The notes below the pieces were generated by a model. The model made no database searches, was not told the DNA's origin, and worked only from the letters and a program-made list of their open reading frames with translations. Positions 5,849 through 18,596 of a stretch of DNA of 48,678 nt are shown here, piece by piece; position 1 is the first letter of the stretch; each line of letters starts with the position of its first letter. Made by a program: the position numbers and the translations under genes. The DNA lies in the IMG/VR virus record IMGVR_UViG_3300046467_001967, positions 1 through 48,678 of that record; one strand, given 5' to 3'. Source of the stretch: a virus.

Positions 5849-8800
5849 ATGGCAAATCCCCTCACTGACATCTTCAGCCAGTTATCTGACCCCCAGAGCG
5901 AACAGCATCTGGCCGACGATCAGGCGATTGAAAACTACGTCTCGGAACCGCCGTTTGTCTCAGGGAGGCCGGATGCGAAACCGGCGTTCTACGAAGACCC
6001 CATCGAGGACGAGGACGTTGCCTCGTTTGGCCCCCAGTCTCGGCAGAACATCGAGAAGGTGCGGGCCGGTACGGTGTGGGGGGTGCGGCCGGCTTTCCAA
6101 AAGGACGTGGACAGATACCGGCAGATGGTGGACTACACCTCTGGGTCCGAGGACATCAAGCGGCTCGTCCGCGCGATGGACAGCCACCCCAACTTTGCCA
6201 AGATGCCCAAGGGCTGGCAGGAGCAGAAGGCGGTGGGAATGATGCGATACCTCCAGATGGGGGGGAGCATCACCAAGCCTACGCACTTCAGGAAAAAGAG
6301 CGTCATTCTCCCGGGTGAATACCGGAAGAGATTTGAAGAGCTGGTTGGTCGGGTGGAGAAGGGGCAGGGGGCCACCATCCAGAGAGATGACGAGTTCGCC
6401 AACTTCCGGCGCCCCAACTATGAAAAGGCAAAGGACCCCCTGCTGGCGTATCTGGGGGGGTCCGAGTTCTTTCCAGAGAGTGCTGGCGAGTCGGCGAGGA
6501 AGGCAAGGGTTGGGAAGTCTGGTGTCGATGAATTCCGCAAGACAGCAGAGGGAGAGGAATTCACCAAGACCGCCAACGACTATATCGATTCGGTTCTGGC
6601 CGGCGAGTACGACGAGAGTGGTCTGGAGAAGCTGTCCAGACGCGGGGTCACCGGGTTGATGAAGGCAAAAAAGTGGAAGCTGTTTGAGTACATCCTCCAC
6701 GAGGAGGCAAAGAAGCGGACCAAGGAAGAGCGGGGGATGCTGGTTCGGTTCTTCGGGGGCTGGAGCCAGTGGACCAGGACGGGGCCGCGGACTGTTGCCG
6801 AGGGCGGGCGAACCTTACTCACCGACCCGTACTCCGGGGTCTTTGCCGGCGAGGGGTTTTCGATCACGAGTGAGGCCAGAGAGAGGTCCGCGGAGAGGAC
6901 CGAGCAGATGCACCGGGTCACCCGCGCCCGGCAGCTCATCTTGGGTGAGATCCTGCCAACCGGCCCACGCGAGGATGCCGGCGTCTCCGAGAAGATTGTC
7001 CTGTACGGCGGCCAGATGATCCCCGACCTTGCGGTGTCAACGGTGCTGTTCGCGGCCGGAACAGTCGGCGCCAAGAGCCCCGCCTTGGGTGCGAAGCTGG
7101 CCCTTGGCTACTGGTGGGCGAGGATCACGCCAGACATCAGGGATCGTCTCAGGGAACTCGGGGTTGACGACAACTACGCTGTGTCGTTGGCGGCCGCCGG
7201 CGGGCTGGCCTCGGCCTACATTGAACAGATGCAGATCAAGAAGTTGTTGCCCAAGGGGGTCACCGGCGTCACCGCAAAGGCCGCCCGGGCGGCTGCCAGC
7301 CAAAGGATCATGCGGGAGTTTGCCGAGGGTGGGAAGCTGTGGTTGTTGGCAAAGCAAGCAGCAAGACGCAGCAAGGAAGGGCTGAAGCTTGGTGCAAAAG
7401 AGACCCTCGAGGAGTTTTTGCAAGCGGTCACTGAGAGTGGGACCGCGGGTGTTGGCGACTACTTGGACACCCGGCTGGATGGGTGGACGCTGACTGAGGA
7501 GTGGAAGGGCATCAAGAAGCAGACCGAGCAGGGTGCCTACGCCATCAGCTTCATCATTCTCGCCGGCCGCGGACTCCCGGGCATGGTCAAATTGCCCGGC
7601 GAGACGGCCAACCTGAAAAAGCAAGCCGAGGCGTACTGGGAGAACCTTCTCGATCAGACACAGCGAGAGTACCTCGAAGTTCTCGAGGAGAGCGAACCCG
7701 GCCGGCAGCGACTGATCGAAGAGGACCGCCCACGTCGTCGCGAGCAGCTCAAGGAGGGGCTCGGTGAGCCGCGGATCGATGATCTGCCGGCAGACCAGCC
7801 CGCCGAGAGGGAAGCCGCCCCGGTCCACCCGAAGCCTCCTGCGGGCCGCGGGTGGACGGCCGAGGAACTCATCGAGGAGGATCGGGAAGGCGCCGAGGAA
7901 ATATCTCAGGGTGTCAGTCGGTCGAGGTTCTTGGCGATCACCGGCGGCGATCAGGGATCCACGAGATACCAAGCGGGCTACGAGACACAGATCAGTGAGC
8001 TGCTCAGGGAAAAGGTGGCGGCCGAGACGGCGGCGGCCGAGGAAGAGCGACAGAGGTTGCGGGAAGAGGGGATGGATCAACCAGCCCTGCCGGTAGAGGA
8101 CTGGGCGGTCCCCGAAGAGGGTGGCACCCTCATCACCCGGGGCGGTGGGCGGTACACCATCCGCGAGGTCGTTGAAAAAGACGGCAAGCGGGTCTACCGG
8201 GTCCACGACGTGCAGCTCGATGAGGAACGCGAGTTCACCGAGGACCGGGTCTACAACATCGAGGCGGCCGTGGGCGAAGGAGCCCAGCAGCCGACGATCC
8301 CCCTGCGAAAGTTTGACCCGTCCACGATGGAACTCGAAGCGGGCGATATCGTCTTCGACAATAAAGGCAATCGGCACACTGTAGAGAGGGTGACCAGGAC
8401 CAAGGCCAAGCCAAGCGCCGGCGATCCCACGGGGCAGCTTTCTGTCATCACCACCACTGGCGAGCGGTTGGCCGGCGCGGACGTGACCAGCGTCGTGAGC
8501 CGGAACATGGGGGAGAGGAAGCCCTACCGTATCCGCCAGTGGCCGCGGCCCGATGCGGCCGAAGAGGCAGAAGCCGCTGAAGCGGAAGCCGTCGCGGTGG
8601 ACGAGGCCGAGGTCAATGAGCTGGTCGGTGCGGCCGCCGTGGTCGAGTCGCAGCTTCGAGATCAGGTTGGGACGTCCGGCCCGGTGGCGAGACGAATACA
8701 GGGGCTCGTGCTGCGGGCCGAGATGGCTGCCAAGCGGGGTGATTCCCTCGTCGCCCGCCAGTTGCTCAATCAGGCCCGCCGTCAGATCGCGGAGAACCGC

Positions 8801-11800
8801 AAGCCGGGGACCGAGCCCGAAGTTGCCGAGGAGCCAGCCGAGCAGCCTGCGGTAGAGCCGGATCCACAGCACGTCCAATTGCATGGTCGCGCCAGTGAAA
8901 ATCAACGTGCAGTGGATGAGGCCGAACGGGCCGCCGAGCAGCCCGCCGAGCAGCCGGAAGCCAGACCAATTATCGCCGCCGACGAACGCGAGCCCCTTCC
9001 TGATGAAGTGAGGACGCAGCTGGGGCCGGGACTGCAAACCCTTATCCAAGTCGAGCCCGGCGAGCTGGTCGAGTCTGACATGGACCCCGAAGCCTACGAC
9101 TTGATCTCCCGCCTCGAGCGGGAGGCTGTCGGTGCCTTCGAGAACGAAGAGGGCGTCAGGGTCTCGATCCTCGCGGAGCCCGGGGGGATCCCGGCCCGCC
9201 GGCGGGCTGGTGTCTATTTCAACGGGCGAGCCTACATGGTTCGAGAGTCGCTGGACTTGAAGTCCACCGACACCCGGGATCAGGCGCTCGCCAAGATACG
9301 CCGAAACTACCAGCGGGTCTTGGCCGAGGAGCTGACGCACCACCTTCAGGACGTGGACCCCGAGACGGCTCAGAAACTCTGGGAATACAGCATCGCCGAG
9401 GATCCCGATGGTGTCTGGAATTCACTCGAGGAGTACGCCGAAAAGGCCGGCTGGGAGCTGCCCCGCCTCGCAACTGAGACCACCCTCCGACGCCTCGGTA
9501 TCCCCAAGGCTGTCCGCGGCGTTCATCCCAATCAGGCCAACTGGGACGCCCTGTCGAGTCTCCAGATCGCCGAGGCTCAGGCGAACTACGTGGCCGACCA
9601 CATGGGCGACGGCCTCTTCTGGAACCGGATGGCCAAGAAGAACCGCAACCTGTTCCAGAAAATCCTCGACGCGATCCGCACCCTGTTCTCGAACCTGCGG
9701 GGCCGCACCACTGTGGACCCGGTGACCGGCAAGCGGCGACAGGTCAGCGGCCCGACCTACCGCCGGACGATGGACGCGGTCCTCGGGGCTACGGCCAAAA
9801 CGGCCGACGTTGCCGACGAGACGCGAGCGGCGGTGGGCGAGCCCCTCGACTACCGGGCCGGCCGGGCAATAGCTGCCCTCGAGGGCGCCAACCGCGGCAA
9901 CCGCCCGTCCACGCCGATCGGGCTGGGCCGCGAGGAGTACGCGAAAGACAAGCGGCACCACGTTGCCATAGCGGCTGACCTGATAATGGACAGCGGCGCC
10001 AAGCTCGATGACTACTGGGCTGTGGTCAGTGGCGTGTACGGCCCATGGAAAGGGATCGGGAGCGACCGGACCAACTTCTACAAGCAGGTCAACCAGTACA
10101 TCTCCAGAGCCAAGGCTTCGAGGAGGGCTGGCGAAGCACCGAAGGGAACAAAGGCGGCGGGCGGGCTCCACCGGGAGTTCTTGGTAAATCGCGACCCGAA
10201 GGTTGGCCAACTCGCCGGCGGCGGGGCGCCATACCTGATCCCCTCCAACATGGGGGACATCAGGGAATCAATGGGGAAAGACTACCGCACCCCTGAAAAG
10301 ATCGCGGAGAAGCAACGGGACGCGCTGTCGGCCCTCAACAGGCTGCTAGAAGAACACGCAGACCCGTTCTCGGACTATGACTCCGCGTTGCGTTTCATGA
10401 CCGACCTGTATCGGATCGATAAGTGGGCGCCGTCGCCGCCGATGAACCTTCTGGCGATGCGGAAAGACCCGGGTGTCGCGTCGGCGTTACTGGGTGGGCT
10501 GAACGAGGACCAGGTTGCCAACAGCGAACACGGTCTGGCGGTAGCCCAAAAATTCCGCGAGAGGCTTGCGGATGGTTCCATGACCGCAGACCACACGACC
10601 CTGATGGCGGGATGGGGGATCCTCTCGAGGATGCTCTCACCTTACATCCACGAGTCGGCGGCGATGCATCTCATGAAGTCTCCGGTTGCCCAACAGATCA
10701 TCCGAGACGCGGTGCGGGGGAAGATGAAGTTAGAGAAGAGAACCGACATCAAGCTGCACCCCGCGACCGGGAAACCGGATCTCGACAAGAACGACAAACC
10801 TGTCTACTACACGTTCCAATCTGACCCGCGGTACGAGAAGCTGATTCGGTCGCTGCGGCACATGATCCCCGAGGGCAGCCCGGGCCGGCCGGGCATCGCC
10901 AACCTTAATTCCTTCTTCCGCGAGTTCCTGCCACTGATGCAGCGGAAGCACCCGTCAGGCGTGACCTACCTACAGCGGCTGCACGAGATATTCGCCGACC
11001 AGTCGATCACTGGGTCCGAGGCCCGCCGGCGGATAATGATGGAGATGCCCCCCGGCAACGGCATCCAGTCAAAGGTCTGGAGTTTCCTGCTGTTGCTGAC
11101 CGGCCGCACCGACGTGCTGGTGATCGACCGGGTACAGGCTCGCAACCTGTGGGACGACGGTTCATTCAGCCACATCTCCAACCTCTACGACGGGTTCAAG
11201 GCTGACGGCATCTCGAGACTCGTGAACGACTTCAAAGCCATTCCGCTCTACGAGGCTCTCGAGAGATCACTCGAGCCTATCATCGCCGAGGTGTTTGAGC
11301 GGGCCGGCATCTCGAGCCCGTCGATGGGGAAATTCCACTGGATGAGTTGGAACGCGGCGAGCTTCCAAGAGGCGGGACACGGGTCGCTCGACTACTTGTA
11401 CGGAACGATCAACAACGACCAAATCTTGATGGAAGACGCCGCCAGCACAGAGGGGCGGTACAACTTCACCGAGTACGGTGCCACCTACTACCCAATGGAT
11501 CCCATCACCGGCGAGGGGCATAAAATCCTGTGGGATCCCGGCGCCCTCGGGTACGCCTACGAGTTCAAGGACGTGGAGGAATTCAAGGCGTTCCAGTCGT
11601 GGATTAAGACGGCCGGCAGTTTCACGAGCGACAGAAAACTGGGCAGGGTGCAGACCGGCGGCGAGAGTGTGCTACCATTGGAGTGGCGGTTGAGGACTGA
11701 GCGGGGCGGTCCCAAGCTGATGAAGGTCAACGGGCTGAACCCGAAGGCCATACCAGAAGTCGAATCCCGGCCGTGGATCTTTGCAGAAGGGGTGGATCTC

Positions 11801-14800
11801 GATGCCATCAACGAACGAGCAGGAGAACTGGACACTGTCCGATATGATGCAGACGCTGGGCGATCTTTCACCACCCGTATTCCTAAGCCCAAGCGACGTA
11901 CTACAGCAAGGCGAGCCGCCGGCGAGGAAGTCTCGCAAGCAGAAAGAGACGCCGCCCGGGCAAAAGCCGAAGCCCGGTCAGTCCCCAGCGTAGACCCGAC
12001 CGTCCGCGGGGTCAGCCGGCAGATCACCGAGGAGTGGTATCTCGGTGGCCGCAACTACCCCCAGAAGCTCGGGCCTATCGGAGAACAGGCCCGCGAGGCA
12101 GTCGCCCTCGACTTCATGGGTGAGACGAAACGGCTGCTCGACAAGGCGGCCGCGGGTCAGGGCTACGGCAGCAACCTCGATACGGCGATTGCCAACGAGC
12201 TGCACAACAAGTGGATCGACAAGGCCGTCGCCAGCTCCCACCTCCCCGAGGCCGAGTCGCTCAAGATCTGGGAGCAAACCCGGCAGGTGATCGAGGCGGT
12301 GCGGTCTACCCGGGGTACGGTTGCGAGAATGATGCGGCAGATGCACGACCCAGAAAAAGTCTCCCGCAGGCCGGGCGACAACGTGTTGCCGCTGTACCCG
12401 ATTGACCGGGTGGACGCCCTGACCGAGGCGGTGGTCGAGGGGCCGACTCGGTACCAGGTTGCAAGGCACGAGGCCGAGGCCGCCCTGATCAAGGCCCGGG
12501 AGAAGGGGCTGACCAAGGGGGTGGAGAGGCAACAGCAGACGCTACGCAACCTCGAGAAGCGGTGGAACACGGCCTTCCGCAAGCTGCGGGACAAGCTGGA
12601 GTCCGAGGGCATGGACATCAGCGAGATCTCCGATATCGCCCTCGACCCAGTCAAGGCCCAGCAGATGCTCAACCGCATCGAGGGCTTGAACCAGAACTTC
12701 CTCGATCACTACTTCCACTTCAAACGGAACATGGCCCTGTCGGCGCTCACCACGACCGGGGCCGATGTGTTCTCGACGGTCGGCTTCGGGGCTTACGCGA
12801 TGGGCTTCGAGCGGGGGATGGAGTCGCTCCAAAACTCCGCGAGGAAGATGCTTGGCAAGGAGATCGACTACGACGCGGCGACGTGGGCTGAGTTCAAAGA
12901 CATCATGTCGGCGATGGGGCCGGCCATCCGCAAGGCGTTCAAGAACTCGATCATGACCTTGATGACCGAGAAGCCGGTGTTGCAGAGGTACGTGGATCAG
13001 TCGGGCCAGTTGACCGGGAGAATGGGTAGCCTGAAAACTGGTGGCGGCTTCGGCTGGAAATGGCCGGGCCGGCTCGTCAGGGCGTTCGGCTACAGCCGGC
13101 TGCTGTTCACCGACGAATTCGCCCAGACGTTCATCGGGTACACCGAGGTCGGTGCCATGGCCCGCCGGATGGCGTTGCAATCGGGGATCCAGTCCGGCAC
13201 CGACGCAATGAAGGAATACATCGAACACGCGGTGGGGGACTTCACCCACGGGGCGTGGGACATGGGGCTCGACCGGGCTCGCCGGGCAACCTTCCAGAAA
13301 GAACAGGGTGAGATTGCCGAGGGAGTCAAGAAGGTTGCACAGAGTTTCCGATCTGTCCCGTATGTCGGCTCGGGCTACCTGCGGTTCCAGATGATGTTCC
13401 TCAACACCCCGATCAACATCCTCGCCGAATCGATCAAGATGAGCCCGCTGGGAATCTTCGCCCTCCTGCTCGACTTCGGATTCAAGCGTCGGTCGGCCGG
13501 CGGCACCGGGGTTCCCGATGTCAGCCGCCGGGTCATGCAGCAGCTCGTGAACGGGATCGCGATGCTCGGCTTCTACTACGCCTACGACCCAGACGACCCC
13601 ATCATCACCGGGACACAGGGGGTCTGGAGCTGGGATGAAAAACGACAGGCCCGCCGTACCATCCCGGCGATGAGCATCAAGGTGCCGTGGTCCGAGGACG
13701 AGAAGGGCAACCCTCTCTACCTGGACTACTCACGCATCGAGCCGGTATCTCTGGTCTTCGCCTCGATGGTCGATTTGATCGTGGCGTGGAAGCGTGGGCC
13801 GGATATTCCCAAGAAGCTCGAGCTGGCTGCCAAGCAGAGTGCGTTGACGCTCGCGGACGTGACGCTCAACAAGAGCTACCTGAAGCAGCTCAATGACATT
13901 CAGGAGATCTGGACCGCCCACGAGGAGAAAAAAATCTGGAGGATGCTGGCCGACTACCAGAGCCGGCAAGCCGTCACCGCCATCCCCAACATCCTCAAGC
14001 ACAGCCTCAAGCACGGCGACGAGTATTTCGCACAGCGGACGGTTCACGGCGTGAGCGACGACGAGTACTTCAGCCGGCTGGCCAAGCGGACGATCCAGCG
14101 AACCGAGCTGCACCGCTGGTGGGGGGAGGAGATGCAGGACGTCCGCAAGTACGACGACTGGGGCCGGCCAGTGAAGACCTCAGAAACGATTGGGTTCCTG
14201 AGCCCAAAAACGTGGAGGATGCTGGTTCCTGCCTTCGTCAAGCGGGTGGACATCTTCGTCGGCGACGAGATCCTGAGCAACTACAGCTTCGACAACCCCG
14301 ACGACGAGCGGAACACCCCGCGGCCCCAGCGAGTCTACGTCAACGCCGCGGGGGAGCGGGTCAGCATGACCGATCTGCAACTCAACATTGCCGAGCAGAG
14401 GATGGGGACGGTGGCGAGAGAACTGACCACCATGTACACGTCCCACTTCAGCGAAGAACAGCGGCAAAACCCGACCAAGGAAATGGCCGACCTGGTCCGA
14501 GAGTCGTTGGCCGCCGGCCGGACTGAGGCTAGGCGGTTCTTGGTCGCCCACTGGAACAAGGACAAGCCGCTGCCGACCGACTGGGAACAGGTTGCCCGGG
14601 ATCTACACGCCAAGCAGATCCTGAGCAAGGCCAACGCCGCGGCGAGCAAAACGGCAGCCTACAAGTGGAGTGTCCACGGGGTGGGGCTCGAGGGTCGTGC
14701 GGTCCATGAAGAGATGAAGGTCGAGAACGAGAAGAAGGCCCGCGAGGCAATCGACTGGTTGAAGCTGCGGGGCTTCAGCAACGACGACATCTACTTCGAG

Positions 14801-14851
14801 TCCACCAAACGCAACAGGTCCAAGTTGAACCGCCGGCTGATGGATCAGTGA
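5849..14851 (+). CDS. Giant 3000-residue internal virion / polyvalent-type protein
   Basis: One uninterrupted 9-kb frame starting two bases after the previous stop. A hydrophobic segment lies near residues 393-430, a very Glu/Ala-rich acidic linker near 580-1080, and a motif LAEELTHHLQD near 1157. The latter resembles a zincin helix but has Glu where the first His of HExxH should be. Residues 1700-1780 contain LLLLTGRTDVLVIDRVQARN, recalling a domain I associate with large phage polyvalent proteins. The C-terminal third is helical with hydrophobic patches. Giant multi-domain phage proteins of this kind are usually packaged and ejected with the DNA. Ejection is inferred; no enzymatic activity can be assigned safely. 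Confidence 0.85.
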   Translation: MANPLTDIFSQLSDPQSEQHLADDQAIENYVSEPPFVSGRPDAKPAFYEDPIEDEDVASFGPQSRQNIEKVRAGTVWGVRPAFQKDVDRYRQMVDYTSGSEDIKRLVRAMDSHPNFAKMPKGWQEQKAVGMMRYLQMGGSITKPTHFRKKSVILPGEYRKRFEELVGRVEKGQGATIQRDDEFANFRRPNYEKAKDPLLAYLGGSEFFPESAGESARKARVGKSGVDEFRKTAEGEEFTKTANDYIDSVLAGEYDESGLEKLSRRGVTGLMKAKKWKLFEYILHEEAKKRTKEERGMLVRFFGGWSQWTRTGPRTVAEGGRTLLTDPYSGVFAGEGFSITSEARERSAERTEQMHRVTRARQLILGEILPTGPREDAGVSEKIVLYGGQMIPDLAVSTVLFAAGTVGAKSPALGAKLALGYWWARITPDIRDRLRELGVDDNYAVSLAAAGGLASAYIEQMQIKKLLPKGVTGVTAKAARAAASQRIMREFAEGGKLWLLAKQAARRSKEGLKLGAKETLEEFLQAVTESGTAGVGDYLDTRLDGWTLTEEWKGIKKQTEQGAYAISFIILAGRGLPGMVKLPGETANLKKQAEAYWENLLDQTQREYLEVLEESEPGRQRLIEEDRPRRREQLKEGLGEPRIDDLPADQPAEREAAPVHPKPPAGRGWTAEELIEEDREGAEEISQGVSRSRFLAITGGDQGSTRYQAGYETQISELLREKVAAETAAAEEERQRLREEGMDQPALPVEDWAVPEEGGTLITRGGGRYTIREVVEKDGKRVYRVHDVQLDEEREFTEDRVYNIEAAVGEGAQQPTIPLRKFDPSTMELEAGDIVFDNKGNRHTVERVTRTKAKPSAGDPTGQLSVITTTGERLAGADVTSVVSRNMGERKPYRIRQWPRPDAAEEAEAAEAEAVAVDEAEVNELVGAAAVVESQLRDQVGTSGPVARRIQGLVLRAEMAAKRGDSLVARQLLNQARRQIAENRKPGTEPEVAEEPAEQPAVEPDPQHVQLHGRASENQRAVDEAERAAEQPAEQPEARPIIAADEREPLPDEVRTQLGPGLQTLIQVEPGELVESDMDPEAYDLISRLEREAVGAFENEEGVRVSILAEPGGIPARRRAGVYFNGRAYMVRESLDLKSTDTRDQALAKIRRNYQRVLAEELTHHLQDVDPETAQKLWEYSIAEDPDGVWNSLEEYAEKAGWELPRLATETTLRRLGIPKAVRGVHPNQANWDALSSLQIAEAQANYVADHMGDGLFWNRMAKKNRNLFQKILDAIRTLFSNLRGRTTVDPVTGKRRQVSGPTYRRTMDAVLGATAKTADVADETRAAVGEPLDYRAGRAIAALEGANRGNRPSTPIGLGREEYAKDKRHHVAIAADLIMDSGAKLDDYWAVVSGVYGPWKGIGSDRTNFYKQVNQYISRAKASRRAGEAPKGTKAAGGLHREFLVNRDPKVGQLAGGGAPYLIPSNMGDIRESMGKDYRTPEKIAEKQRDALSALNRLLEEHADPFSDYDSALRFMTDLYRIDKWAPSPPMNLLAMRKDPGVASALLGGLNEDQVANSEHGLAVAQKFRERLADGSMTADHTTLMAGWGILSRMLSPYIHESAAMHLMKSPVAQQIIRDAVRGKMKLEKRTDIKLHPATGKPDLDKNDKPVYYTFQSDPRYEKLIRSLRHMIPEGSPGRPGIANLNSFFREFLPLMQRKHPSGVTYLQRLHEIFADQSITGSEARRRIMMEMPPGNGIQSKVWSFLLLLTGRTDVLVIDRVQARNLWDDGSFSHISNLYDGFKADGISRLVNDFKAIPLYEALERSLEPIIAEVFERAGISSPSMGKFHWMSWNAASFQEAGHGSLDYLYGTINNDQILMEDAASTEGRYNFTEYGATYYPMDPITGEGHKILWDPGALGYAYEFKDVEEFKAFQSWIKTAGSFTSDRKLGRVQTGGESVLPLEWRLRTERGGPKLMKVNGLNPKAIPEVESRPWIFAEGVDLDAINERAGELDTVRYDADAGRSFTTRIPKPKRRTTARRAAGEEVSQAERDAARAKAEARSVPSVDPTVRGVSRQITEEWYLGGRNYPQKLGPIGEQAREAVALDFMGETKRLLDKAAAGQGYGSNLDTAIANELHNKWIDKAVASSHLPEAESLKIWEQTRQVIEAVRSTRGTVARMMRQMHDPEKVSRRPGDNVLPLYPIDRVDALTEAVVEGPTRYQVARHEAEAALIKAREKGLTKGVERQQQTLRNLEKRWNTAFRKLRDKLESEGMDISEISDIALDPVKAQQMLNRIEGLNQNFLDHYFHFKRNMALSALTTTGADVFSTVGFGAYAMGFERGMESLQNSARKMLGKEIDYDAATWAEFKDIMSAMGPAIRKAFKNSIMTLMTEKPVLQRYVDQSGQLTGRMGSLKTGGGFGWKWPGRLVRAFGYSRLLFTDEFAQTFIGYTEVGAMARRMALQSGIQSGTDAMKEYIEHAVGDFTHGAWDMGLDRARRATFQKEQGEIAEGVKKVAQSFRSVPYVGSGYLRFQMMFLNTPINILAESIKMSPLGIFALLLDFGFKRRSAGGTGVPDVSRRVMQQLVNGIAMLGFYYAYDPDDPIITGTQGVWSWDEKRQARRTIPAMSIKVPWSEDEKGNPLYLDYSRIEPVSLVFASMVDLIVAWKRGPDIPKKLELAAKQSALTLADVTLNKSYLKQLNDIQEIWTAHEEKKIWRMLADYQSRQAVTAIPNILKHSLKHGDEYFAQRTVHGVSDDEYFSRLAKRTIQRTELHRWWGEEMQDVRKYDDWGRPVKTSETIGFLSPKTWRMLVPAFVKRVDIFVGDEILSNYSFDNPDDERNTPRPQRVYVNAAGERVSMTDLQLNIAEQRMGTVARELTTMYTSHFSEEQRQNPTKEMADLVRESLAAGRTEARRFLVAHWNKDKPLPTDWEQVARDLHAKQILSKANAAASKTAAYKWSVHGVGLEGRAVHEEMKVENEKKAREAIDWLKLRGFSNDDIYFESTKRNRSKLNRRLMDQ

Positions 14852-14947: not shown

Positions 14948-15712
14948 ATGATCAGCGTGGGATCACTGTTTTCGGGATGTGGTGGTATCGAATTAGGTCT
15001 GTGCCGGACTGGTCACTTCGACATCCGGTGGATGGTTGAGAAGGATGCTTTCGCAAGACGGATCTTGGACCGGCACTGGCCCGATGTGCCCAAGCACGTT
15101 GACGTGCTGGACTTCCCCGGGAAGTACTGGCACCCCGGCCAGTTCGAGGTGGATGTCATCACCGCTGGCTGGCCCTGCCAAGATTTCAGCAAAGCCGGCC
15201 GGGTTGACCTCGGATTGCAGCGAGGACTCGACGGCCGCCGCAGCGCCCTCTTCTTCCAGATCATTCGCGTGGCTCAGTTGCTCAAGCCCCGCTACCTCCT
15301 CTTGGAAAACGTACCAACGATCCTTGTTCGAGACATGGGTCGAGTTCTCGGATCACTGGCCGCTCTCGGGTTTGATGTCGAATGGACGAGTCTCGAAGCT
15401 GCCCACGTTGGACTCCCCCAAAAACGACGACGAGTTTTTATCGTGGCCTACCCCCACGACCCGCGACTGGAAGGACACCGGGTGTTTGGCGAACGTGCCG
15501 GAAAACTCGCTGCTGGGCCGCGTGTTCAAGAATCGAGTCGGCCTGAACCTCGACCCCCTCTTCAGCGAATGGTTGATGGGCTTTCCGTACCAAATCGAGT
15601 GGACAGAACCCGAGCCATCGGAAATTCAGTCTGCCCGCTCATCTCAGAATGGATTGGAAACTTGATCGCGGAACACAAGGAGGTAGCCGATGCTGGTGCT
15701 GACAAGGCGTGA
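14948..15712 (+). CDS. dcm: C5-cytosine DNA methyltransferase (Dcm family)
   Basis: 254 residues, shorter than the usual 300-400. It transfers a methyl group from SAM to C5 of cytosine in DNA, probably protecting phage DNA from restriction. Motif I FSGCGG is at residues 8-13, the catalytic PCQ loop at 76-78 (GWPCQDF), ENV at 120-122, QKRRRVFIVAY at 158-168, and a motif X-like RAIGNSVCP near 222-230. The target-recognition region between VIII and X is very short. It overlaps csrA by 23 bases and heads the operon behind the promoter at 14860. A second frame over the last third also reads as methyltransferase-like sequence (see the entry at 15417-15665), so the true C-terminus is uncertain. Confidence 0.88.
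   Translation: MISVGSLFSGCGGIELGLCRTGHFDIRWMVEKDAFARRILDRHWPDVPKHVDVLDFPGKYWHPGQFEVDVITAGWPCQDFSKAGRVDLGLQRGLDGRRSALFFQIIRVAQLLKPRYLLLENVPTILVRDMGRVLGSLAALGFDVEWTSLEAAHVGLPQKRRRVFIVAYPHDPRLEGHRVFGERAGKLAAGPRVQESSRPEPRPPLQRMVDGLSVPNRVDRTRAIGNSVCPLISEWIGNLIAEHKEVADAGADKA
15417..15665 (+). other. Alternative +1-frame C-terminus of the cytosine methyltransferase
   Basis: From the run CCCCCAAAAA at 15415-15424, the +1 frame encodes about 82 residues ending at TGA 15663-15665. It contains SWPTPTTRDWKDTG, ENSLLGR and LDPLFSEWLMGFP. From memory these are hallmark motifs of the target-recognition and C-terminal part of many phage Dcm proteins. The annotated frame over the same bases carries a different Dcm-like ending. 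CCC followed by C at 15416-15419 is a plausible +1 slip site. Whether the frame is translated cannot be decided here; an ancestral frameshift, dual coding or a homopolymer sequencing error are all possible. Confidence 0.35.
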
Positions 15713-15884
15713 GGGCGAGTCGTTGTTGCTCTTCAACGAGCGAACCGGCGAGCGGGTTGAAATCACCCTCCTCGAGATCAACGGGACCACGGTGAAGGTC
15801 GGGACGACCGCGCCGGACAACATAACGATCCTTCGTACCGAGCTTCTCGAGAACAAGGTCGAGCCGCAGGAGGCGGGCAAATGA
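15690..15884 (+). CDS. csrA: CsrA-like carbon storage regulator / RNA-binding protein
   Basis: A 64-residue protein, the normal length for CsrA, beginning MLVLTRREGESLLL. It preserves the conserved MLxLTRR start (Leu4, Arg6 of the RNA-binding strand) and an Arg in ILRTELLENK matching the conserved Arg44 region. CsrA dimers bind GGA motifs in mRNA leaders and usually block ribosome access. The gene has a very strong ribosome site (AGGAGG, 7 bases before the ATG) that itself contains a GGA, so autoregulation is possible. It overlaps the methyltransferase end and its stop overlaps the next start (ATGA). The GGA-bearing leaders of the minus-strand block are candidate targets. Confidence 0.88.
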   Translation: MLVLTRREGESLLLFNERTGERVEITLLEINGTTVKVGTTAPDNITILRTELLENKVEPQEAGK

Positions 15885-17065
15885 GCGACGGGAGATTCTG
15901 GAAGCACGGTGTGACGCCATGGGAGTGGTGTCAGGAACAGGGGTTTTTCGCCCAGATCAAGGATATGTGCGAGGGTGAGGACAACGGGCCGGCCATGCGG
16001 GCCGCCCTGTCGGGACTGATCGAGGGCTATGCCCACCGCTGGTTCGCGGACAACGCCTCGATGCAAGTCCTACAGGTCGAAGGCACCCACGAGGCCGACC
16101 TTGTGAACCTGGACACCGGCCGCTCGAGCCGGACCTACAGCCTCGCGGGCAAGATCGACAAGGTCGTGTTGATCAACGGCCAGACCTGTCTGGTCGATCA
16201 CAAGACCACGTCATTGGACGTGAGCGACCCGGCCTCGACCTACTGGCGTCGGCTGCGGGTGGACGGGCAGGGACAGATGTACCAGATCCTGCTGATGTCC
16301 CAAGGCGTCGAGATCGACCGCGTGGTCTGGGACGTGGCCCGCCGGCCGACGTGGCGGATGAAAAAGATCCCGGCCGCAGCCCAAAAGCTGATGTTCGAGA
16401 CCACGACCTATCATGGACACGACGTGTCCCGGGAGGCGCGGGAACACACCGCACTGGAAGGCACCGAGGACTGGGAGCTGTTGTCGTACCGGATCGCGGC
16501 CGCGGCGATGGAGGAGCCCAACAAATTTTTCGTCCGCACGACCATCCCCCGCACCAAGCCCGAGCTGGTCAGTTTCAACGACAAGTTGTGGCGGATCGCC
16601 GACGAGATGCGGCAAGCCCGCCGGCTCGACCTCGATGACCAGATCGAGAACTGGGGCGCCTGCACCATGTACAACACCGCCTGCGAATACCTGCCGCTCT
16701 GCTCGGGCAGCGAGACGATGGACTCGGACAAGTGGCAAAACGTGGATCACGTTCACCCTGAACTGGAAATGGAGGATCGCGATGAAAAGAGCTTAGTGAC
16801 GCACAGCCGGATATCCTGTTTCCTTGCTTGCCGCAAGAAACACCACCTCAAGTACGAGATGGGCCGGCGCCGGGCGGATGACACCGGGACCGAGGCACTG
16901 TGGTTCGGCACTGCGTGGCATCACCTGATGGACAAATTCTGGATTGAAAGTCAAAGGATTCAACACGATGAAAGCTCTCGAGACGGGTCACCAGCCAGCG
17001 AGGCCGGCCGCCCAGAAGACAGTGAAGACGAGGAACCTGCTGAAGGAGATATCGACCTCGATTGA
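15881..17065 (+). CDS. PD-(D/E)XK (Cas4/RecB-like) nuclease with displaced N-terminal module
   Basis: 394 residues. The nuclease core is clear: GKIDKVV with Asp93, LVDHKTT with Asp106 and Lys108, and QGQMYQ at 130-135. A Cys cluster ACTMYNTACEYLPLC (about 260-275) is of the type that binds Fe-S at the end of Cas4-like proteins. Unusually, SRISCFLACRKKHHLKYEMG and ALWFGTAWHHLMDKFW (about 308-349) follow the cluster. In related proteins this module forms the N-terminus and supplies the first Cys. The last 33 codons overlap the ATPase gene in another frame and are low-complexity acidic. Likely role: DNA end processing for recombination, with the ATPase and SSB-like genes downstream. A second, truncated tandem copy is the alternative explanation. 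Confidence 0.8.
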   Translation: MSDGRFWKHGVTPWEWCQEQGFFAQIKDMCEGEDNGPAMRAALSGLIEGYAHRWFADNASMQVLQVEGTHEADLVNLDTGRSSRTYSLAGKIDKVVLINGQTCLVDHKTTSLDVSDPASTYWRRLRVDGQGQMYQILLMSQGVEIDRVVWDVARRPTWRMKKIPAAAQKLMFETTTYHGHDVSREAREHTALEGTEDWELLSYRIAAAAMEEPNKFFVRTTIPRTKPELVSFNDKLWRIADEMRQARRLDLDDQIENWGACTMYNTACEYLPLCSGSETMDSDKWQNVDHVHPELEMEDRDEKSLVTHSRISCFLACRKKHHLKYEMGRRRADDTGTEALWFGTAWHHLMDKFWIESQRIQHDESSRDGSPASEAGRPEDSEDEEPAEGDIDLD

Positions 17066-17828
17066 GGATCGACCTTCGGCCGGCGTCATCTACGGCCCCA
17101 GCGGCGTGGGCAAGAGTACGACCTGCGGGGGCATCCCCAAGGCCGTCGTCCAGCCGATGGTGGACGAGAACACTTGGGGCAACCTGAAGCGGGCCGGCGT
17201 GGTGCCGGGCAAACTCGCCACCCTGCCGCCGGCTGAGACGTTCACCGACGTGATGGACGGGATGCGGTCACTGCTGGACCAGGACCACGACTACAAGTCG
17301 TATGTCCTCGACAGCGTGACCAGCTTCGAGCGGAAGCTGCATGAACACGTGTGTCGGGAGTCGTTCAATAATGATTGGACCGACCGCGGATTCATGGGCT
17401 ACATGAGGGGTTACGAGGTCGCGCTCACCCCGCTTCGCGAGGCGCTTGACCTCTGTGATCGACTGCGAGATGAAAAACAAATGTCTGTTTTTCTGATCGG
17501 GCACTCGGTGGTGAAGACGCACCGCGACCCACGGCTGTCTCCGTTCGACCGTCACATCTGTGACCTGCACCACAAGTCGTGGAGTGTGATCCACCGATGG
17601 TGCGACTTTGTGTTCTTCATGGATTTTGTGGTCGATGTCACCGAGGAGGCCGGGCGAGGCAAGGGCCACGGCGGTGATGAACGGCAATTCATGGTCACGT
17701 ATGATGCGAGCTACGATGCCAAGAATCGGTTCGGATTGACCGAGTCGATTTCGGCTGGTGATGCTGGCAGCGATGCGTGGGCGAATATCTCGAAGGCGGT
17801 TAAGACCGCGAGAAAGGCGAGTGCTTAA
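16968..17828 (+). CDS. Sak4-like / RecA-fold ATPase
   Basis: 286 residues from the ATG at 16968, chosen over an upstream in-frame start at 16944 because AAAGGA precedes it at proper spacing. Walker A GPSGVGKS spans residues 43-50 and a Walker B-like strand YVLDSVTS lies near 112. A segment KTHRDPRLSPFDRH with DLHHKS follows, as in phage single-strand annealing or recombination ATPases of the Sak4 type. The expected role is ATP-dependent strand annealing or recombination with the nuclease upstream and SSB-like protein downstream. The 5' end overlaps the nuclease gene by 98 bases. The Sak4 assignment is by motif and neighbourhood, not alignment. Confidence 0.8.
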   Translation: MKALETGHQPARPAAQKTVKTRNLLKEISTSIEDRPSAGVIYGPSGVGKSTTCGGIPKAVVQPMVDENTWGNLKRAGVVPGKLATLPPAETFTDVMDGMRSLLDQDHDYKSYVLDSVTSFERKLHEHVCRESFNNDWTDRGFMGYMRGYEVALTPLREALDLCDRLRDEKQMSVFLIGHSVVKTHRDPRLSPFDRHICDLHHKSWSVIHRWCDFVFFMDFVVDVTEEAGRGKGHGGDERQFMVTYDASYDAKNRFGLTESISAGDAGSDAWANISKAVKTARKASA

Positions 17829-18115
17829 TGAATACAGCGAACGAAGAGATTGCGAGGTCGATTATGGTGTCAGGGGACAAACCGAAGCGGCGAAGGGTCT
17901 CTGCCGCTGGCCGGCGACGAATGTCCGAGGCTGGCAAGAAGCGTTGGGCCAAGTCCAAGGAGGAAGAGACGAACGGAGAGGTCGTGAACCTTGGGGCCAT
18001 TCTGACGGCCGGCCCGCTGTGCCTCAAGTTGCGGCAGCTCGTCGGCACCGACACTGCCATCAAGATGCTCAAAACCTTCGAGGCGAGCTTGGGAGTTGGT
18101 GGCACCAATGCCTGA
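17828..18115 (+). CDS. Small basic protein, function unknown
   Basis: 95 residues; the ATG shares its A with the preceding TAA. The first half is strongly basic (KPKRRRVSAAGRRRMSEAGKKRWAK), which suggests nucleic-acid contact and recalls the AT-hook-like or Arg/Lys patches of small phage DNA-binding proteins. The second half is a hydrophobic helix pair (GPLCLKLRQLVGTDTAIKML). It lies between the ATPase and the SSB-like gene with overlaps on both sides, so it is probably part of the same recombination or replication complex. No family is recognised. Confidence 0.7.
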   Translation: MNTANEEIARSIMVSGDKPKRRRVSAAGRRRMSEAGKKRWAKSKEEETNGEVVNLGAILTAGPLCLKLRQLVGTDTAIKMLKTFEASLGVGGTNA

Positions 18116-18596
18116 ATACGACGAAGGCCCGATACGGGCGGCCGTGGTGTCTCAGGGGTTCGGCACCATCGAGAAAACCGGCACCCAGTATTTCGCCCTC
18201 GAGGTGCTGCCCGAAGGTGGCGCATTCCCGCGGACGATCAAGCTCTGGGTGAATTCCGAGTCGAACCTGCAACGGGCCAAGGCCCGTCTGACGAGCCTCG
18301 GTTGGGACGGCGAGACGTGGGTGGCTGTCAATCCCGACCACCCCGATGGTCACTCGTTCGTCGGACTGACGCTGGACCTGGTCAACAAACACCGGGATGG
18401 GTTTGATGACCTCGACTTCCCCGGACCCCCCGGGGGTGGGGCCAGCGGCCTAAAAGCGGACGTTGATCTGGCCAAGAAGCTCGACCGACTGGGCGGGAAA
18501 AAGGCCAAGAAGAAGACGGTTGAGTCCGACCCCAAGCCCGAGCCGGTATCATCCCCGCCGGCGGACGAGGGCGACGACGATGAGGTGCCATTCTAG
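18108..18596 (+). CDS. SSB-like protein with acidic C-terminal tip
   Basis: 162 residues from the ATG at 18108, with GGGAG 12 bases upstream; a TTG start four codons earlier is less likely. The first 100 residues look like a compact beta-barrel domain (IRAAVVSQGFGTIEKTGTQY, VNSESNLQRAKARLTSLGW). Then come a Gly/Pro linker, a Lys-rich stretch and an acidic end, GDDDEVPF. That end matches the DDDxPF tip through which bacterial SSB recruits partners. Single-strand DNA binding is inferred from this architecture and the recombination neighbours. Sequence identity to classical SSB is not obvious. Confidence 0.7.
   Translation: MPEYDEGPIRAAVVSQGFGTIEKTGTQYFALEVLPEGGAFPRTIKLWVNSESNLQRAKARLTSLGWDGETWVAVNPDHPDGHSFVGLTLDLVNKHRDGFDDLDFPGPPGGGASGLKADVDLAKKLDRLGGKKAKKKTVESDPKPEPVSSPPADEGDDDEVPF

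Follow-up and report, generated by a model that had tools for sequence, protein, structure and literature searches.

A circularly permuted RecB/Cas4-like nuclease conserved beside a Sak4-like recombinase gene in phages

In characterised Cas4 proteins, one cysteine of the iron–sulfur (Fe-S) cluster lies N-terminal and three lie C-terminal, and enzymes of this kind have been termed iron-staple nucleases (PMC4176176). Pairs of an exonuclease and Sak4 occur in phages and have been compared with the Red pair of lambda (PMC3483164). Here we describe a PD-(D/E)XK nuclease gene from IMG/VR virus record IMGVR_UViG_3300046467_001967, analysed over its whole length of 48,678 nucleotides (hereafter, the window), which also carries phage genes for a tail fibre, a major head protein and a Holliday junction resolvase. 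An initial annotation, made from the letters of the sequence, had read in this gene the order core, three-Cys cluster and then the module that ordinarily stands at the N-terminus, and had proposed a natural circular permutation. Our results bear out that order, and we consider it very probable that the gene encodes a naturally permuted RecB/Cas4-like exonuclease that adopts the usual iron-stapled fold and acts as a partner of Sak4. We found no earlier report of a permuted RecB/Cas4-like nuclease in the literature searched, which did not include the 2012 review of PD-(D/E)XK proteins (10.1093/nar/gks382).

Order of the parts in the nuclease

The Pfam profile PDDEXK_1 (PF12705) matches the nuclease in two stretches (9e-14, 52.4 bits, cut-off 22). 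The better of these places profile positions 3–60 on residues 307–362, so that the start of the profile sits at the end of the protein. The phage exonuclease profile phrog_1218 divides in the same manner, with positions 95–330 on residues 38–275 and positions 10–65 on the C-terminal piece. We also used a profile of nine proteins with canonical order only (359 columns), whose columns 86–358 match residues 38–302 (5e-51) and whose columns 3–59 match residues 303–358 (3e-10), the two matches adjoining without a gap. Moving residues 303–358 to the front in silico yields a single match over columns 5–354 with approximately the summed score, and it is only once re-ordered in this way, with the core no longer preceding the module, that the protein is co-linear with PDDEXK_1. 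The C-terminal segment thus aligns to the N-terminal part of the family, and the permuted order of this open reading frame is real and far beyond chance.

The protein contains the PD-(D/E)XK catalytic set (H347, D93, D106/K108 and Q130/Y134) and the four cluster cysteines of AddB/Cas4-like iron-staple nucleases (C317 with C261, C268 and C274), but C317 follows the three-Cys segment instead of lying N-terminal to the core. Its RecB-like motifs and core fold are common to the Cas4 proteins SSO0001 and Pcal_0546 and to the nuclease domains of AddB, AdnA and ACE1. It has four Fe-S cysteines, as Cas4 does, whereas all four lie in the C-terminal part of the chain and the first comes last. No cas1 or cas2 gene, looked for with a CRISPR Cas4 proper in mind, is found among the immediate neighbours (the csrA-like, Sak4-like and SSB-like genes; the rest of the window was not searched). 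After re-ordering, the protein matches the canonical Sak4-linked phage exonucleases (phrog_1218, and loci L029–L037 with their relatives) from end to end, and the cysteines, the catalytic residues and the Sak4 and SSB neighbours are the same. These exonucleases have the N-terminal module first and the sequence EHKTTS, whereas the window's group has the module last and DHKTTS, with D for E in motif III.

On the model that we propose, the chain would begin in the loop that follows the motif I helix and form first the catalytic core and then the three-Cys segment, from which a short linker (about 10 residues) would lead into the N-terminal module of ordinary relatives. The moved module would supply the first Fe-S cysteine and the motif I histidine and so complete the iron-stapled nuclease fold of those relatives; the former termini would be connected, and a surface loop would hold the new ones. 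Because the staple would keep both ends of a canonical chain close to each other, such a joining of the old termini, with new ends in a loop, appears structurally plausible.

Conservation, selection and predicted structure

A tblastn search against phages returned one co-linear match, over residues 39–354 at 35–37% identity, to the exonucleases of Tunturi_1 and Tunturi_2, isolated Tunturiibacter phages with complete genomes. The two proteins (Tunturi_2 gp56 and Tunturi_1 gp59, annotated as exonucleases) have the same core-then-module order, share 33–35% identity with the window protein and are followed by Sak4 and SSB genes; the Tunturi loci differ from the window in that a further small gene separates the nuclease from Sak4 and no csrA was identified directly upstream of the nuclease. 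The permutation is not noted in the annotation of either record, and a search through the main text of the Tunturi phage paper gave no mention of the nuclease (PMC11924767). Profile scans of IMG/VR enlarged our main test set to 39 proteins, and two further permuted members (L120 and L123) were found after this set had been fixed. The permuted order is thereby present in two isolates and about 38 further distinct IMG/VR loci, most of these relatives being 31–41% identical to the window protein. Canonical-order relatives (L029–L037 and L081) were recovered too, whereas pattern scans of genome contigs found no relatives in cellular genomes, none were found on plasmids, and a sequence search of the Protein Data Bank with the nuclease gave no match.

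All 39 proteins are matched out of order by the canonical-only profile, core columns coming before columns 3–55 or so, and are matched end to end once re-ordered in silico. Each carries the motif sequence (D)HKTT, three-Cys, TxS..C and FGxxxH, and FGxxxH always stands exactly 35 residues after T/SxS. Across 58 permuted proteins of all kinds, C261, C268, C274, C317, H347, D93, K108, Q130 and Y134 are invariant, and position 106 in motif III is D or E. The moved module is under purifying selection: its ratio of nonsynonymous to synonymous substitution rates (dN/dS) is 0.01–0.17 in related pairs for which dS could be estimated, compared with 0.05–0.19 for the core. In two pairs (the Tunturi phages and L070/L073) the synonymous sites of the module are saturated, which makes the ratio uninformative, and the tail beyond the module is less constrained (ratios of 0.3–3.5 in related pairs, from few sites).

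We ran AlphaFold2 on the window protein with 18 relatives as accompanying sequences. The resulting model has a mean predicted local distance difference test score (pLDDT) of 82.5 and a predicted template modelling score (pTM) of 0.78, and the module is modelled with confidence (72–92 in ten-residue blocks over residues 301–360). The canonical relative L029 (pLDDT 80.6, pTM 0.73) aligns from its first residue to AdnA 791–1039 (Z 16.9, root-mean-square deviation (rmsd) 3.2, 234 aligned) and also to AddB, ACE1 and Cas4. The window model aligns to AdnA 841–1039 only (Z 8.9, rmsd 3.2, 179 aligned), and the stretch that it misses, AdnA 791–840, is in these models the counterpart of the moved module. 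A sequential structure search likewise matched the window model over the core only (model residues about 11–281); this is expected of a permuted chain and provides no evidence for a new fold in the module. The closest viral model, a 343-residue nuclease of an uncultured phage (BFVD A0A6J5NSY1; TM 0.66/0.75, 19% identity), aligns co-linearly over 351 columns, nearly the whole window model, and is possibly another permuted member.

Competing explanations and function

Because the window is a metagenomic virus record, the true gene could be canonical and its module misplaced or lost through a sequencing or assembly artefact. Misassembly is refuted by the conserved order, which recurs in two complete isolate genomes and in the many divergent contigs, and neither the window nor the flanks contain a second copy of the module; we regard the probability of an artefact as negligible. 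A different reading starts from tandem duplication, the usual route to circular permutation, and takes the C-terminal piece as the decaying remnant of a second nuclease gene while the first copy works without an N-terminal module. Decay of this kind sits poorly with the invariant motif I histidine and first cysteine, the fixed 35-residue spacing, dN/dS values as low as or below those of the core and the confident model of the module, and we saw no frameshift or module loss in close relatives, so that this reading seems very unlikely. The module might instead be translated separately, as a short protein that joins the core in trans, given that the window gene and 22 of the 38 others have GTG or ATG start codons ahead of it. 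Shine-Dalgarno-like sequences, which occur at 31 of the 39 gene starts, accompany an internal start before the module in only four genes, and in 16 of the 39 the 22 codons that lead up to the module contain no start codon. These counts point to translation as part of one chain. With a linker that is short and in frame everywhere, a split nuclease is highly improbable, and the module is most likely made within a single chain.

The adjacent Sak4 and SSB genes that mark the Sak4-linked phage exonucleases are present in the window. Among permuted and canonical loci of sufficient length, nearly all preserve the order nuclease–Sak4, usually together with SSB. From family and neighbourhood, the protein most likely serves a Sak4 recombination module as the exonuclease that resects DNA ends. 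As a partner of the Sak4-like recombinase and the SSB-like protein, it would resect double-stranded DNA ends and expose single strands for annealing or recombination. A protein permuted and folded as proposed could also serve in host DNA degradation or as a replication nuclease, and the functional evidence does come from the neighbourhood alone; given the conserved gene order and the description of phage exonuclease–Sak4 pairs as Red-like recombination pairs (PMC3483164), we judge such a role unlikely. Some points weigh against our preferred reading of a permuted, iron-stapled partner of Sak4. The pairing is deduced from synteny, the nuclease activity of family members and its polarity are predicted, model confidence and homology suggest that C317 contacts the three-Cys cluster, and the loci scanned include no module–core–module intermediates.

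Origin, cut points and locus

Circular permutations usually arise when a gene is duplicated in tandem, the copies fuse and the outer halves are lost. The initial annotation had suggested this route, and an origin by duplication and truncation would fit the short linker that joins the canonical end (..HPEL) to the canonical start (LLTNSR..). The suggestion is compatible with our data in this respect, but neither an intermediate nor a remnant copy was found; near the 39 permuted genes, the search for remnant module or core copies gave nothing beyond one weak match (E 0.78). The same annotation had placed the breakpoint at an FW pair (TTCTGG) and joined residue 349 to residue 6. This FW cannot mark the breakpoint because it belongs to an N-terminal extension (residues 1 to about 20) missing from relatives; in profile terms the junction connects residue 358 with a point near residue 38 and spans a variable loop. 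With the extension private to this protein and the event ancient, chance is the best explanation for the six bases in common.

The window's group, permA, is a single clade (support 99/98, and 100/100 in a larger tree), and within it the permutation has a single origin; a distant member, L198, groups with it. A second clade, permB, comprises 20 distinct members with the order and cut site of permA and an EHKTT core (L115, L117, L131, L133, L135–L137, L139, L141–L146, L150–L152, L154, L156 and L196). A core-only tree separates permA from permB (approximately unbiased test, p = 0.047), a tree of the module alone does not discriminate (p = 0.485), and in a thinned tree the two groups come together with weak support (66/17); permB possibly stems from a separate, third permutation event. 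The three permC proteins (L190:2998-4131, L194:2992-4161 and L197:2992-4248) start just before EHKTT of motif III and end just after GGKIDA of motif II, with the three-Cys segment, the N-terminal module and helices in between. A Shine-Dalgarno-like sequence precedes their start codons. Sak4 comes next in L194 and L197, and in L190 a weaker Sak4 match lies beyond an insertion. In the tree they group among canonical proteins, and they have a CxECKKK insert in common with canonical L208 and L210 and a KAEELM helix in common with L209 and L211. This different cut point and different nearest kin indicate a separate permutation event, so that there were probably at least two in the family.

The arrangement is thus no one-off: it is widespread in this phage subfamily, and the chain has also been cut at a second point. 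We think it likely that the family is a natural hot spot of permutation, with at least two independent events at two cut points, possibly a third in permB, and the Fe-S staple as the enabling feature. Natural circular permutation of enzymes is uncommon; here it is a conserved state of a phage recombination nuclease, and residues of both the active site and the cluster have changed ends in the chain. The nuclease fold appears to tolerate moved ends. Canonical, same-cut and different-cut forms all occur naturally. They constitute a natural experiment that bears on two questions: how permutation comes about, and whether the fold withstands cutting thanks to the iron staple. In practice, annotation and sequential structure search detect such proteins only in part.

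Table 1. Features of the nuclease locus in the window
Feature	Position	Strand	Remarks
csrA-like gene	15690..15884	+	Pfam CsrA 3.5e-15; stop overlaps nuclease start codon (ATGA)
Circularly permuted PD-(D/E)XK (RecB/Cas4-like) nuclease	15881..17065	+	394 aa, ATG start
N-terminal extension and variable loop, residues 1–37	15881..15991	+	from alignment; contains the FW of the initial annotation
Nuclease core, residues 38–302	15992..16786	+	canonical profile columns 86–358; motif II D93; motif III D106-x-K108; Q130xxxY134; C261-C268-C274
Three-Cys cluster C261, C268, C274	16661..16702	+	invariant across permuted proteins
Relocated N-terminal module, residues 303–358	16787..16954	+	canonical columns 3–59; first Fe-S Cys C317; motif I His H347
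C-terminal tail	16955..17065	+	overlaps Sak4 gene start in another frame; low confidence in structure model
Sak4-like recombinase ATPase	16968..17828	+	Pfam AAA_24 1.8e-22; PHROG Sak4-like 3.8e-25
SSB-like protein	18096..18596	+	homologous to the gene that follows Sak4 in Tunturi phages and relatives (tblastn synteny); no own match in Pfam or PHROG

A csrA-like regulator stands directly upstream of the nuclease in one relative also (L026:1292-1465). The two Tunturi genomes are mostly 87–100% identical around the nuclease, compared with only 60–78% in the moved module (L002:6784-6960 versus L003), a pattern that suggests exchange of the module alone by recombination between these phages. The insertion in L190, between the permuted nuclease and the Sak4 match (L190:4337-6346), encodes a 434-residue Cas12f1-like/TnpB protein (PF07282, 4e-18), after which comes a CRISPR-like array of 10 repeats spaced at 71–75 bp; two copies of a 41-nucleotide stretch are present, one close to where the array ends (6339–6379) and one inside the Sak4 match (6540–6580). 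Elsewhere in the window, a 3000-residue open reading frame occupies positions 5849–14851, with a DNA cytosine methyltransferase gene immediately downstream.
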